Source: Gemmatimonadota bacterium (GTDB taxonomy: Bacteria; Gemmatimonadota; Gemmatimonadetes; Gemmatimonadales; Gemmatimonadaceae). From it: a stretch of 64,000 nucleotides of DNA. The stretch covers positions 186,001-250,000 of the forward strand of contig PLCA01000003.1 of the NCBI GenBank assembly GCA_003134685.1, written 5' to 3'. Position numbers and translations under genes: made by a program. Of the stretch, positions 56,496-62,230 are shown piece after piece; the stretch's first letter is position 1; the number at the start of each line of letters is the position of its first letter. Under the pieces are notes generated by a model. The model made no database searches, was not told the DNA's origin, and worked only from the letters and a program-made list of their open reading frames with translations.

Positions 56496-57113
56496 ATGCT
56501 CGTTCGAGCAAGTCTCGCAACTCTGACAATTACCACCGCGGCGTTTCTTGTGACCGCCGGTCAAGTCGCGCGCGCGCAGCAGCCCGCGCTTGCGGCCGCG
56601 GTGGTGCCCGCCGGCCCAGCTGTCAACGACGTCGCCCCCGATTTCACTCTCGCCGGCGCCGACAGGTATGGGCTTCTCAAGACGCCGGTCAGGCTCTTCG
56701 ACTATCGCGGACGTACGGTCGTTCTTGCCTTCTTCTATCAGGCGCGAACCAAGGGCTGAACCATCCAAATGGAGGCGTACCGTGATCAGTACGCCACGCT
56801 CTTCAACAACGGACGAAACGTCGTCGTCATCGGTATCAGCGTCGATCCCGACACCGCGCTCGCGTCCTGGGCACGCGACGAGGACTTCCCCGTTCTATTC
56901 GCCAGCGACCCAGGCGGAAAAGTCGGCCAGTCGTACGCCGCCTTCGATGCCAAGAACAAGTTGGACAACCGGTCTCTGTTTGTTGTCCGTCCCGACGGGC
57001 GTATCGCCTACGTGACCAAGCCGTTCAAGGTTCTCACTCCTTCAGCGTACAGCGATCTCGCCGCGGTGGTGGACAGTCTGGCTCCTCCACCCAAGCCGGA
57101 TTCGACCAAGTAA
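56496..57113 (+). CDS. Selenocysteine-containing secreted peroxiredoxin-like (AhpC/TSA) protein
   Basis: The 205-residue reading passes through an in-frame TGA at 56757-56759 (residue 88), read as selenocysteine. Residues 1-28 are a signal peptide. The thioredoxin fold follows: VNDVAPDFTLAGA, VVLAFFYQARTKG-U-TIQMEAYRDQY, NVVVIGISVDPDTALASWARD, and FVVRPDGRIAYVTKPF. The TGA falls exactly where the family has its peroxidatic Cys (Thr-x-x-Cys), and the frame continues with normal family sequence on both sides. A SECIS-like hairpin follows (56774-56795). The product has no Cys at all, so without Sec it would have no redox-active residue. The alternatives are a nonsense mutation or a sequencing error. 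Confidence 0.85.
56774..56795 (+). promoter_or_regulatory. Bacterial SECIS-like stem-loop after the in-frame TGA
   Basis: GGCGTAC (56774-56780) and GTACGCC (56789-56795) form a perfect seven-base stem around an eight-base loop CGTGATCA. The loop begins 21 bases after the TGA, within the usual range, and has a G at its second position, as bacterial SECIS elements require one among the first two loop positions. It is inside the coding region, as expected in bacteria. Confidence 0.78.
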
Positions 57114-57150
57114 AAAAGAGAGCCGCGGATTTCTCCGCGGCTCTCTTTTT
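57113..57150. terminator. Bidirectional intrinsic terminator
   Basis: GAGAGCCGCGGA (57118-57129) pairs perfectly with TCCGCGGCTCTC (57134-57145). T-runs follow on the plus strand (TTTTT) and, after the A-run, on the minus strand. It terminates both the selenoprotein gene and the TlpA-like gene that meet here. Confidence 0.93.
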
Positions 57151-57669
57151 CTACATTGCCTTCTTCAGCGCTGCCTCGAGATCCTGCTTTCCGCCCAGGC
57201 CCGTGTAGACGACGCGACCCGTTTTGTCGAGCACGACAACGTACGACGTGGCGGGAGCATCGAATGCGCCCGCCGCTTTGCCATCGAGATCATAGAACGT
57301 CTCATGCGGCATCGGGTTCGCGACTAGCCATCTCCGCACTCTCTCAGGCGATTGGTTGATCGCTACGGCGAGCGCCACGAACTTCACCTTCGTCCCGAAC
57401 TTCTTCTCGGCGTCGAGCAGCGCCGGCATCAGCTCCCTGCAGTTGGGGCACCACGTTGCCCAGAACTCGATCAGCATCGGCGTCTTACCGATGTAGGCTC
57501 CGAGATTGATCGGCCTGCCGTCGAGAGACTGTACCGTGACCACCGGCGCCTGCGCGCCGACTTCGATGCCGAGATCCTGCGCCAACGCGGGTGTGGATGT
57601 CAATGAAGCCGCGGAGAGAAGTAGCGTGAGCAAGACCTTCGACGACGAGAACAGCTTTCGATTGGTCAT
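57151..57669 (-). CDS. TlpA-like thioredoxin-fold exported protein
   Basis: From the ATG at 57669 (MTNRKLFSSSK) the 172-residue product has a signal peptide (1-30) and a TlpA/ResA-type thioredoxin fold with the redox pair WCPNC (about residues 74-78). It is likely a periplasmic thiol-disulfide reductant. Upstream start candidates to 57960 have no signal pattern. The CcdA-like gene lies 36 bases upstream on the same strand and should supply electrons to it. It is tail to tail with the selenoprotein. Confidence 0.9.
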   Translation of the reverse strand: MTNRKLFSSSKVLLTLLLSAASLTSTPALAQDLGIEVGAQAPVVTVQSLDGRPINLGAYIGKTPMLIEFWATWCPNCRELMPALLDAEKKFGTKVKFVALAVAINQSPERVRRWLVANPMPHETFYDLDGKAAGAFDAPATSYVVVLDKTGRVVYTGLGGKQDLEAALKKAM

Positions 57670-57704
57670 CAGGTTCGGATTGTGATTTCGATGTTGGAAG
57701 TCGC

Positions 57705-58421
57705 TCAGATGAGGAGGAGTCCCATCTGCACAAGGTAATACTCCGCAACCGCCAACATGATCAATGCGAACAGGCGCTTGATCCATACCATCCACTGCCC
57801 CGCTCTTGGAAGACGGGCGAGCGTTCCACTGAAAAGTCCGACCAGCACCAGCAGTGTGCACATTCCGAGTGAGAACACGAACAGGTAGATGAATCCGAGT
57901 ACTCCACTCTTGGTTGCGCTTACCCAGGTCAGCACTGCCGCCATTACGGGCGCCGAGCACGGAGCGGCGACCAGTCCGGACGCGGCGCCCATGACGAACA
58001 CCCCGTAAAGACTTCCTCCTTCACCCGCGGTGGCCGCGCGCGTCAGGAGCCAGGCTGGTACACGTACCGGGATGACGTCGAGCATGGCCAGCGCCGCGAT
58101 CAGGAGAAGATTTGCCATCGCGAAGTAAAGCCACGGGTTCGTGCTCACCGACCCGAACAGGGTGCCGGTAAGTCCAGCGAACAGGCCCACCGACGCGTAT
58201 GCGAGGGAGAGCCCGAGTACATAGGCGAGTGTCAGAAACACGGTCCGCGCGCGAGCGCGCGGCGCGCCGCCAACCGCGCTGCCTCCAACTATCGCCGCGG
58301 TGATTGGAATCATCGGGTAGATGCAGGGTGCGAGGCTCGTCAACACACCCGCGATGAACAGAATCGGAAGCGCGGTGAGCGGATTGGATGAGAGCTGAGT
58401 CGAGATGTGAGTGAAATCCAC
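57705..58421 (-). CDS. CcdA/DsbD-type membrane electron transporter
   Basis: The 238-residue protein has six membrane segments and two conserved Cys-Pro motifs: SLAPCIYPMIPI (about 30-41) and AAPCSAPVMA (about 150-160). This is the transmembrane domain family that passes electrons from cytoplasmic thioredoxin to periplasmic thiol proteins. It is located upstream of the TlpA-like gene on the same strand and likely co-transcribed. A possible recipient could also be the selenoprotein peroxiredoxin. Confidence 0.93.
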   Translation of the reverse strand: MDFTHISTQLSSNPLTALPILFIAGVLTSLAPCIYPMIPITAAIVGGSAVGGAPRARARTVFLTLAYVLGLSLAYASVGLFAGLTGTLFGSVSTNPWLYFAMANLLLIAALAMLDVIPVRVPAWLLTRAATAGEGGSLYGVFVMGAASGLVAAPCSAPVMAAVLTWVSATKSGVLGFIYLFVFSLGMCTLLVLVGLFSGTLARLPRAGQWMVWIKRLFALIMLAVAEYYLVQMGLLLI

Positions 58422-58495: not shown

Positions 58496-59314
58496 CTATT
58501 TCTTCGTCAGCAACTCCTCGAACAAATCCAGCGCACGCGGATCGTGCGACTGGCCGAGCCAGAAGAGTGCCTTCTTGCGTATCTCGGGGTCTTTGTTGGT
58601 CCGCGCAACAGCGATGAGCGCCGGAACACCTTCATCGCGGGGACGCTGGGACAGCGCGAACACCGCCTGTTCTCGCACCTCCCGATCGACGCTGTTGTCA
58701 AGGACGAGGGAATTGAGATTCGCCGTTGCCGCATCACCCGCCGCCTGACCAAGCCAAAACACGGACTGCGTCCGGGTGCTGCGGGGCAAATCGGGATTGC
58801 GCGCGACCTTGATCAGCGCCGGCCAGATGGTGGCGCTGTCCGCGATCGTAGCGGGAAAGATCGCTTTTTCACCCATGCTTCCCTTCTCGCTCTGGGCGAT
58901 CGAGACGAGATAGTCGGCCGCTTCGCGCGCCGGCACCGTGCCGAGATCGACAACGTCGGCGCCGGCCGGCCGCCAGCGCCCGCCGACGTAAAAGCGAAGA
59001 TCGGTCAGCTCGCCATTCCGGCGGTCGAGCACGACCCGCGCGGGACCGACGCTGCAATCGTTTTCCCATTCGACATCGCGCGAGTTGTTCTCGTTACCCC
59101 ACGACGTGCTGCCGCGGCCATTTGAATGCCTGATCGAGTTGCCGCTGCCGCAGATTCCCGGCTTCGCCGCGAACGTCATGCGAACCGTGCCGTTCGAGAC
59201 GCGCGCTACCTGGCTGGCGATGCTCTGCGCCGGCGCGACTCGCGCGATCCCGGCCAGAGCTGCGAGGACGACTGCTGTCGTTCCCGCGAGCGATGTCATT
59301 CGGAGTGTTGTCAT
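58496..59314 (-). CDS. Exported HEAT-repeat protein
   Basis: The 272-residue product has a signal peptide (1-29). Residues about 35-165 are a unique beta-rich region with Cys residues (GICGSG, ENDCSVG). Residues 170-272 hold three HEAT-type repeats with cores VFWLGQ, VFALSQ, LFWLGQ. The last ends SHDPRALDLF. These repeats match those of the longer upstream HEAT protein, so the two are paralogues. The start overlaps the previous stop (ATGA). It is the last gene of the ECF operon. Confidence 0.82.
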   Translation of the reverse strand: MTTLRMTSLAGTTAVVLAALAGIARVAPAQSIASQVARVSNGTVRMTFAAKPGICGSGNSIRHSNGRGSTSWGNENNSRDVEWENDCSVGPARVVLDRRNGELTDLRFYVGGRWRPAGADVVDLGTVPAREAADYLVSIAQSEKGSMGEKAIFPATIADSATIWPALIKVARNPDLPRSTRTQSVFWLGQAAGDAATANLNSLVLDNSVDREVREQAVFALSQRPRDEGVPALIAVARTNKDPEIRKKALFWLGQSHDPRALDLFEELLTKK

Positions 59315-60789
59315 TTGTTGATCAGATCAATGAGAAACTGTTGCACGCGTGGATCGCGCGACTGTCCAAGCCAGAAGATTGCCTTCTTCCGGAGTTCGGG
59401 ATCCTTCTCGCTCTTGGCAATGTCGAACAGCTTGTCCATCGCGGTCCGATCGCTCTGGCGCTGCGAGAGCACGAAGATGATCTGTTCGCGCATCTCGCTG
59501 TCGCCCATTCGGTCGTACAGCTTCGAGATTTCCGAGATCGCAACACCCGACTGACCCGCCCAGAAGAGCGCCTTCTTGCGCAGCTCGATGTCTTCCTTCG
59601 GATTGACGGCGATATTCATGAGCCACTGCTCGTTCCCGGCTCCCTTCTGTTGTGATAGAGAGAATAGGATCTTCTCCTTCAGATCCTCGTTTGTGAGCCG
59701 CGAATAGAGATTCCGCAGGAACTCCGTGTTCTCCGTCGAGCGCCGCTGGCCGAGCCAGAAGATTGCCTTCTCGCGCAGGTCGCTATTCTCGTTCTCACGC
59801 GCGGCGAAGTCCCGGAGGATCTGCGCTGCCCTCGGCTCGTTCTGCTGGGACAAAGCGAACAGCGCCTTGTCCTTGATGCTTTCGTCCCCATTGCCCTTGA
59901 GGATCTCATCCAGGAGTCCCGTAGATCCGGGCACCTGCGACAGCCAGAACACCGCCTGTTCGCGAGTTTCCTGGTCGGGGTCGCTGCGCGCGACATTCAT
60001 GAGAATGTTCGCCGTCTGGTCGGTTCTCTTCTGTGAGACCAGGAATACTGCCTTGCGACGCAACGCCACTGAGCAGGGGTCTCTGCGCGCGAGAACCTGC
60101 TGCAGAATCGGCATCGCGCGTTCGGGGTCCATCTGGATCAGCGCCATGATCGCCGCGATGCGGTCGTCGGTGCCCTCGTCCGCATCCGGAGAACAATCGC
60201 GGCCCTGCGACCCGGTTACCGGTGGGCGCGTCGGGCCAGGGTTTGTATCCCCACCCCCCTCTGCAATGCTCCCAATGGAGGCGGCGCACGACTCGTCGCC
60301 CCGTTTAGCCAGCTCGCCACACACGCGAATCTGGAGCAGCGCTCCGTCCTTTTTCGCGATTGCGGGGAAACGCTGGTTCAGCTGATTCAACCGGTCGCGC
60401 GCCGTCCTCAGATCGTCGTCACCACCACTGCGGTAGAGCGCGAACGCCTCGTAATAGAGTGCCTGTCCGGCGTATGCGGATTGTGGATACCGCTCGGGGA
60501 TCCGATGAAATATCTCCGCTGCGCGCTTGTAGTCACCACGCGAGAGCGCTTCACGCGCCAGCCGGTACAACGAATCTGCAGGGTCTGCTTTCGCCCACGG
60601 CTCGGGCGGGAGTGAAATGGCCTCCTGGTCGAGAGAGCCAAATGCCTCGCTGAGCTGCGCATCCGCGCTGGCCAGAGCGAGGGGGGCAACCGAAGAGTGG
60701 AAGGAATCGTGGCTGGCGGGAGATTGGCTGACTCCGAATCCCGCCGAGGAAATAATTGCTGCTGCCGTGAGTAGTGTTCTCATTGTCAT
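59311..60789 (-). CDS. Exported TPR and HEAT-repeat protein
   Basis: The ATG at 60789 (MTMRTLLTAAAI) is preceded by GAGG nine bases upstream and gives 492 residues with a signal peptide (about 1-22). A TPR-like pair of helices (YKRAAEIFHRIPERYPQSAYAGQALYYEA) spans about residues 75-130. From about 250 to the end are eight HEAT-type repeats, with cores alternating FLVSQ, FWLSQ, FALSQ, FWLGQ, FSLSQ, FWAGQ, FVLSQ, FWLGQ. The product is likely periplasmic. The upstream anti-sigma gene ends three bases before its TTG alternative start (60804). Confidence 0.85.
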   Translation of the reverse strand: MTMRTLLTAAAIISSAGFGVSQSPASHDSFHSSVAPLALASADAQLSEAFGSLDQEAISLPPEPWAKADPADSLYRLAREALSRGDYKRAAEIFHRIPERYPQSAYAGQALYYEAFALYRSGGDDDLRTARDRLNQLNQRFPAIAKKDGALLQIRVCGELAKRGDESCAASIGSIAEGGGDTNPGPTRPPVTGSQGRDCSPDADEGTDDRIAAIMALIQMDPERAMPILQQVLARRDPCSVALRRKAVFLVSQKRTDQTANILMNVARSDPDQETREQAVFWLSQVPGSTGLLDEILKGNGDESIKDKALFALSQQNEPRAAQILRDFAARENENSDLREKAIFWLGQRRSTENTEFLRNLYSRLTNEDLKEKILFSLSQQKGAGNEQWLMNIAVNPKEDIELRKKALFWAGQSGVAISEISKLYDRMGDSEMREQIIFVLSQRQSDRTAMDKLFDIAKSEKDPELRKKAIFWLGQSRDPRVQQFLIDLINK

Positions 60790-60800
60790 TGAAAGTGGCC

Positions 60801-61658
60801 TCAACTACCGCGCTGCGAGCCCGCGGGGATCGCGGTGCGCAGCCTCGTCATTACATGGTCGTGTTGCAAGGTCTTCTCGATCAGATCGCGATCCTGTGGC
60901 GTGCTTCCGGGCGATAGCTGGACGATCTGCACGAGCACGAGCTCGAGATCTTCCAGCAGCGGACGACGCTGCGAATCGTTGGCTACGGGAGAATCCAGTA
61001 ACAGGCGGGTGTTGCTCAAAAGCTGACGCGCCCATGATCCGAGCTGCGCGTCCATTTGCTGATCCGTCGCCGAGCGTGTTCTGAACGAAGTCAGAAGCGC
61101 CTCGGCCTCACTGAGATGCCGCACCGCCGTGAGCTGGTAGGCGGAGTTGGCAGCGGAATTGGTCGAAGGTCCGCTGAGCGCGACCTGGTTTCCGTTCCCG
61201 GTACGGTCCTTTTGCGAGTCGCGTCCGTTCGGGAGTGCTACACCTGGCGACGATGTCGTCAATCTGTCGCCCGTCGGCGTCAATGCAACGGCCGCCGGAT
61301 TTCCAGGTGCGACGCTGGCCGATGGCCCAGCGATCGAAGAAGAGGGCGAACCGGTCTTCGGCGCATTTGCCGCCGCTACCGAGGTTGGTGTGTTCGACGA
61401 AGCGCTCCACCGCCCGAGGCCGACACCGGTCGCAAGCAGGAGGACGGCTGCCGCCACCGCGCCCAGCCAGAGTCTCGAGCCGAATCTCCGCCCGGACGAT
61501 TTGCGCATCGGCGACCCTCCGCCGTACACGACACGCGGTCCCGCCGCGCGCTGTGCCTGGATCGCGCTCCACATGTCCTCGCGGGGAATACGAGCGGGCG
61601 GCACGTTGTAGCCTTGAGCCGACTTCTTCAGGAATTCCTCGAAGTTGTCTTCGGTCAT
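60801..61658 (-). CDS. Putative anti-sigma factor, single-pass membrane protein
   Basis: The ATG at 61658 (MTEDNFEEFLKKSAQGYN) overlaps the sigma-factor stop (ATGA). The 285-residue protein has a short N-terminal cytoplasmic region without a zinc-finger motif, a single membrane helix (about 66-84), a Ser/Pro/Ala/Thr-rich linker (90-150), and a helical periplasmic domain (180-270). Position next to an ECF sigma factor, topology and small cytoplasmic segment suggest an anti-sigma factor; the sequence family is not recognised. The ATG at 61667 is also possible. Confidence 0.75.
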   Translation of the reverse strand: MTEDNFEEFLKKSAQGYNVPPARIPREDMWSAIQAQRAAGPRVVYGGGSPMRKSSGRRFGSRLWLGAVAAAVLLLATGVGLGRWSASSNTPTSVAAANAPKTGSPSSSIAGPSASVAPGNPAAVALTPTGDRLTTSSPGVALPNGRDSQKDRTGNGNQVALSGPSTNSAANSAYQLTAVRHLSEAEALLTSFRTRSATDQQMDAQLGSWARQLLSNTRLLLDSPVANDSQRRPLLEDLELVLVQIVQLSPGSTPQDRDLIEKTLQHDHVMTRLRTAIPAGSQRGS

Positions 61659-62230
61659 GAAACCCACTCCGGTGCAAAATCCGCCAGCGCCACGCGCAAC
61701 TTGCTTCGTGCCTGGAAGAGGTGTGATTTCGAGGTCCCAATCGGAATGCTAAGCGTCCCGCTGATTTCCTCGTGTGTGTAACCCTCTACGTCGTGCATCA
61801 CGAATACCGCTCTGTATTTGTCCGCCAGCGCGTCGACAGCTCGCGCCAATCTCTCCTTCAGATCGGGATCGGCCTCCCTCCGCGTCACTCCGACCATCAA
61901 TCCTTCTTCCATTGGTGCCTCACGATTCCTGAGTCGCTTCGTCTTCCGTAACCCGTTCAGCGCCACCGAGACACCGATCGAATGAAGCCAGGTAGAGAGA
62001 GACGATTCGCCGCGAAAACTTCCAATCTTTTCAAACGCCCGGATGAACGTTGCCTGCGTGAAATCCCGCGCGAGCTCGTCATCACCCGCCAGACGAAACG
62101 CCAGCCGGTAAATGCGATCGACGTATGTCTCGTACAGCTCACGCTCGGCGGCGGCATCGCCGGCAACCACGCGCGTGATGAGTTGGGTATCGTTCACCGA
62201 GCTCCGAAACTCGTAGGCAGCCAGCTCCAT
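61655..62230 (-). CDS. ECF-type RNA polymerase sigma factor
   Basis: The 191-residue protein has sigma region 2 (LYETYVDRIYRLAFRLAGDDELARDFTQATFIRAFEKIGSFRGES-like helices, 30-90) and region 4 (LADKYRAVFVMHDVEGYTHEEISGTLSIPIGTSKSHLFQARSKLR-like helix-turn-helix, about 130-180). It has no region 1.1, 3 or long N-terminal extension. It heads an operon with a membrane anti-sigma protein and two exported HEAT-repeat proteins. Targets are unknown. Confidence 0.93.
   Translation of the reverse strand: MELAAYEFRSSVNDTQLITRVVAGDAAAERELYETYVDRIYRLAFRLAGDDELARDFTQATFIRAFEKIGSFRGESSLSTWLHSIGVSVALNGLRKTKRLRNREAPMEEGLMVGVTRREADPDLKERLARAVDALADKYRAVFVMHDVEGYTHEEISGTLSIPIGTSKSHLFQARSKLRVALADFAPEWVS

Follow-up and report, generated by a model that had tools for sequence, protein, structure and literature searches.

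The window, the whole 64-kb stretch of DNA analysed here, contains a gene (positions 56496-57113, + strand) that, by comparison with its relatives, encodes a putatively secreted peroxiredoxin of 205 residues with selenocysteine (Sec) at residue 88 (U88). We consider it likely that, as a whole, this gene is explained as a UGA-recoded, exported one-selenol peroxiredoxin, for which TlpA-CcdA is the best candidate reductant. The reading frame starts at ATG 56496, passes an in-frame TGA (56757-56759, + strand) and ends at TAA 57111-57113. Residue 88 is encoded by this TGA in the context ARTKG-U-TIQM, and alignment of the frame with homologues places it at the peroxidatic position. The Pfam domain AhpC-TSA covers residues 43-172, across the TGA (E 5.7e-26). 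The whole frame reads as one AhpC/TSA protein; the earlier note had described family-typical sequence from the TGA to the stop at 57111. The same note had proposed Sec as the only redox residue; indeed, there is no Cys codon elsewhere in the gene. A gene caller that treats TGA as a stop would cut the peroxiredoxin at 87 residues. The same genome encodes six further AhpC/TSA-domain proteins, and none of these six genes has an in-frame stop.

When 85,000 species were searched, eight Gemmatimonadota relatives were retrieved, each carrying TGA, along with two distant proteins that have Cys; in this one scan, close kin outside Gemmatimonadota were not found. Within the phylum, a homologue was present in 338 of 395 genomes. 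In the retrieved loci, nearly all of which are from Gemmatimonadota, the peroxidatic column is TGA in 162 copies, Cys in 76 and Asp or Glu in two distant copies. Five other matches lack the peroxidatic column. A few genomes contribute two entries, and one of the Cys rows comes from a distant Flavobacterium protein. The counts agree with the earlier proposal that the TGA occupies the place of the peroxidatic Cys, and the Cys copies are the homologues that it had called for. Apart from the Flavobacterium row, the mature part of both the Sec and the Cys forms has no further Cys, with the exception of one row in which a Cys adjoins a terminal stop. The Sec peroxiredoxin is phylum-wide and is found in most of the Gemmatimonadota relatives tested. 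A sequencing error (TGC or TGT read as TGA) or a pseudogene would also place a stop in the frame, and the in-frame stop is all that speaks for this explanation. The relatives refute it: TGA stands at one column in 162 copies from many genomes, and coding conservation is observed on both sides. We regard its probability as negligible.

In a quick tree of 150 rows, at least 11 changes between Sec and Cys were counted, and five of these are forced by starred branches. Single genomes can possess tandem Sec and Cys copies (for example, L062, L063, L072 and L102). Sec and Cys copies lying close together in one genome were observed at L062, L063, L072-L075, L077, L102, L106 and L162, mostly in genus g8. 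The comparison rows are not phylogenetically independent.

A hairpin with the layout of a bacterial SECIS (bSECIS) element lies just downstream of the TGA (56774-56795, + strand). The stem (56774-56780/56789-56795, GGCGUAC/GUACGCC) has seven perfect pairs, as described in the earlier note, and the loop CGUGAUCA has 8 nt and starts 21 nt past the UGA. The bSECIS model specifies a loop of 3-9 nt, a stem of 4-16 bp, a G in the first two loop bases, a spacing of 16-37 nt and an MFE of -7.5 or lower (PMC13188914). The hairpin agrees with all of these constraints (8 nt, 7 bp, 21 nt and -11.8 kcal/mol), and the G is the second base of the loop. When the RNA from the TGA to position 56800 was folded, as the note had recommended, the energy was -14 kcal/mol (z -2.7 versus dinucleotide shuffles). 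A synonymous-codon shuffle of the window gene alone gave P of about 0.06. Therefore, one sequence alone would not prove the hairpin; the comparative data do. The core stem with an MFE of -7.5 or lower is present in 151 of 152 distinct Sec genes versus 3 of 73 Cys genes. Moreover, the synonymous codons of the hairpin are frozen, and only in Sec genes. After the TGA, the 152 distinct Sec genes use GCG in 150 of 150 Ala codons, TAC in 152 of 152, CGT in 140 of 152, GAT in 150 of 152, CAG in 151 of 151 and TAC again in 151 of 152, while elsewhere in the same genes the frequencies are 20% for TAT, 10% for CGT and 29% for GAT. Compared with the rest of the same genes, the run GCG TAC CGT GAT CAG TAC gives P values from 1e-12 to 1e-104. 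The closing pair in Sec genes is G-C (71), C-G (23) or T-A (22), and A-A also occurs (25). This position is paired in 117 of 152 Sec genes (unpaired in 35), versus 55 expected from shuffling; in Cys genes there is no excess (26 paired versus 30 expected). Because this shuffle ignores kinship and the starred branches offer only two to four independent pairs, the codon freezing and the contrast between Sec and Cys genes are the stronger evidence. An Rfam search of the window gave zero matches.

The source genome, from a Gemmatimonadota soil bacterium (3.63 Mb, 98.4% complete), possesses selA, selB, selC and selD, the set whose presence the earlier note had made a check of its proposal. SelA (E 8e-144), SelB (340.8 bits; cut-off 242) and SelD (E 1e-112) were identified, and tRNA-Sec(UCA) sits about 100 bases downstream of selD. 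Across the genomes compared, SelA was found in 140 of 149 with a Sec copy versus 3 of 40 with Cys copies only (37 of 40 lack it; Fisher 3e-27). The nine genomes with a Sec copy in which SelA was not found are draft assemblies (73-96% complete). Of these, L162 (G182) is the hardest exception to explain, at 96% completeness. In three genomes from the genus of the window (G015, G306 and G350), SelA is present and a Sec copy of the peroxiredoxin was not found; these genomes probably have other selenoproteins. As a further reason for the Sec machinery, we looked for a formate dehydrogenase of the selenoprotein type; only relatives below the cut-off, without stops, were obtained.

The UGA might instead be decoded as another amino acid, or serve as a switch that gives mainly truncated protein when selenium is short. 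TGA serves as a normal stop codon for genes next to the peroxiredoxin locus and in other parts of the genome; a truncated product is therefore expected when Sec-tRNA is low. However, homologues have Cys at the column, tRNA-Sec(UCA) and SelA, SelB and SelD are present, and the hairpin is conserved in TGA copies only. These observations make such decoding, or such a switch, very improbable. The comparative data support recoding of the UGA to selenocysteine, for which SelB, tRNA-Sec and the adjacent downstream hairpin would be responsible.

The earlier note had also pointed to a signal peptide. The N-terminus (56496-56579, + strand) is signal-peptide-like, with probable cleavage at about ARA|QQ. 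In a simple heuristic scan, used in place of SignalP, a hydrophobic N-terminal segment was found in 158 of 161 Sec copies and AxA in 155 of 161. Thus, in nearly all selenocysteine copies the N-terminus looks like an export signal of the Sec pathway. We propose export of the protein and a role as a one-selenol peroxiredoxin of the cell envelope, in which the selenolate would attack peroxide to give a selenenic acid. Because a resolving Cys is absent, reduction of the oxidised enzyme would depend on a second protein or on a small thiol.

The leading candidate is a TlpA-like thioredoxin that would be kept reduced by CcdA; both genes lie tail-to-tail with the peroxiredoxin gene. Domain search identifies a TlpA/ResA-like secreted thioredoxin with WCPNC (57151-57690, - strand) and a CcdA/DsbD-beta-like membrane thiol electron transporter (57705-58421, - strand). 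Between the convergent genes, a long inverted repeat that includes runs of A and of T (57112-57150) was read from the sequence; it is absent from the terminator-scan list and is probably a two-way terminator. Where at least 1 kb of downstream sequence was available, and uncorrected for kinship, TlpA and/or CcdA is convergent downstream in 61 of 83 Sec loci of the Phe/Tyr type (see below), 0 of 29 Sec loci of the Pro type and 0 of 36 Cys loci. A close relative of CcdA is present in most genomes, Sec-form and Cys-form alike; had Cys genomes lost CcdA, this would have tied CcdA to Sec, but such loss was not seen. Because CcdA relatives are also present in most Cys-form genomes and Pro-type Sec loci lack the neighbours, it is gene order that makes the TlpA-CcdA pair a plausible envelope reductant of the Sec peroxiredoxin. 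Farther along the window, two adjacent secreted-looking genes (58496-60804, - strand) encode HEAT-like repeats in which a motif resembling REQAVFWLSQ recurs, and a sigma-factor-like gene (61655-62230) lies near them.

In the window protein, the hallmark Pro of peroxiredoxins (PxxxT/SxxC) is replaced by Tyr81 (codon TAT, 56736-56738, + strand). This replacement, the phylum-wide spread and the neighbouring TlpA-CcdA pair go beyond the earlier note. The Thr three residues before the peroxidatic residue is present (T-x-x-U); it is conserved, as are the Sec/Cys column and an Arg. All 76 Cys copies have Pro. In contrast, 125 of the 162 Sec copies have another residue: Phe in 72, Tyr in 47 (together 119) and others in 6, with Pro in 37. 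In the quick tree, the Cys copies of G036, G006, G095 and G032 lie among Phe/Tyr Sec copies, and all four have Pro. In an independent-pairs test of Sec versus Pro, two or three of six starred pairs point in the same direction and none in the opposite, too few for significance. Tentatively, Sec may have made the nearly universal Pro dispensable; the Phe/Tyr copies would then form a Sec-specialised envelope clade fed by CcdA and TlpA. Within this reading, Pro would have been regained in lineages that reverted to Cys, and thus Sec and the residue at the Pro site would be coupled.

The missing Pro bears also on another explanation, in which the protein is a genuine selenoprotein of peroxiredoxin fold with a different reductant and a main job other than removing peroxide; a selenol oxidoreductase acting on other substrates would be one example. 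The absence of a resolving Cys, and scores far below the cut-offs of the curated PrxU and PrxQ/Bcp models, are in line with this. However, Thr, Sec and Arg are in place, and the predicted fold is a high-confidence peroxiredoxin fold. An AF2 model with Cys standing for Sec gave pLDDT 95.6 and pTM 0.89. Its nearest solved fold is AhpE from M. tuberculosis, a 1-Cys peroxiredoxin (Z 23.6, rmsd 1.5-1.6), followed by Bcp-type proteins. By domain and fold, the window protein is an AhpC/TSA protein of the peroxiredoxin superfamily despite Tyr81. We therefore judge a main job other than peroxide removal unlikely and favour the one-selenol peroxiredoxin.

Gemmatimonadota are best known from soils. One selenoprotein family runs through much of this phylum, with many switches between Sec and Cys and with both forms sometimes adjacent within one genome. 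These peroxiredoxins offer a natural setting in which to ask why Sec is retained and how the active site changes with it. According to a 2026 review, retention of selenoproteins is rare among aerobic bacteria (PMC13188914). Gemmatimonadota are not named in the selenoprotein surveys that were searched, and no report of such a protein was found in papers that mention both selenoprotein and Gemmatimonadota; subscription papers and preprints lay outside the search and may hold an earlier report. Because Sec-containing peroxiredoxins with TxxU have long been known (PMC1088965, PMC9312934, PMC13188914), the kind is not new. The Gemmatimonadota form represents a little-noticed branch of a known enzyme family; the branch spans the phylum, and its Sec form has often lost the Pro that all Cys copies here retain.

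Among known systems, PrxU (NF040737) resembles the window protein in its AhpC/TSA fold, its peroxidatic Sec and its TxxU motif, and is the best NCBIfam match. However, the score is 55 bits against a cut-off of 270, and the window protein has Tyr for Pro in PxxxTxxU, a putative signal peptide and another lineage. The PrxU of E. acidaminophilum (TxxU, COG1225) was reportedly described by Sohling in 2001. PrxQ/Bcp proteins share the GCT-Q active-site context and a similar fold; the two-Cys members have a resolving Cys, whereas the window gene has no second Cys codon. AhpE, the closest solved structure, likewise has a single redox residue, but its identity is about 30% and the residue is Cys, in contrast to Sec in the window protein. 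The reductants of AhpE are mycothiol and mycoredoxin (PMC8945050). The Caulobacter-type peroxiredoxin, likened by description rather than by sequence, shares the envelope site, and its electrons are also thought to come through a DsbD-family transporter; in contrast to our proposal, it uses Cys and ScsB, not CcdA. This envelope enzyme was reportedly shown by Cho in 2012, in a study cited in PMC4491210, to be served by ScsB, and is said to have a link to TlpA.
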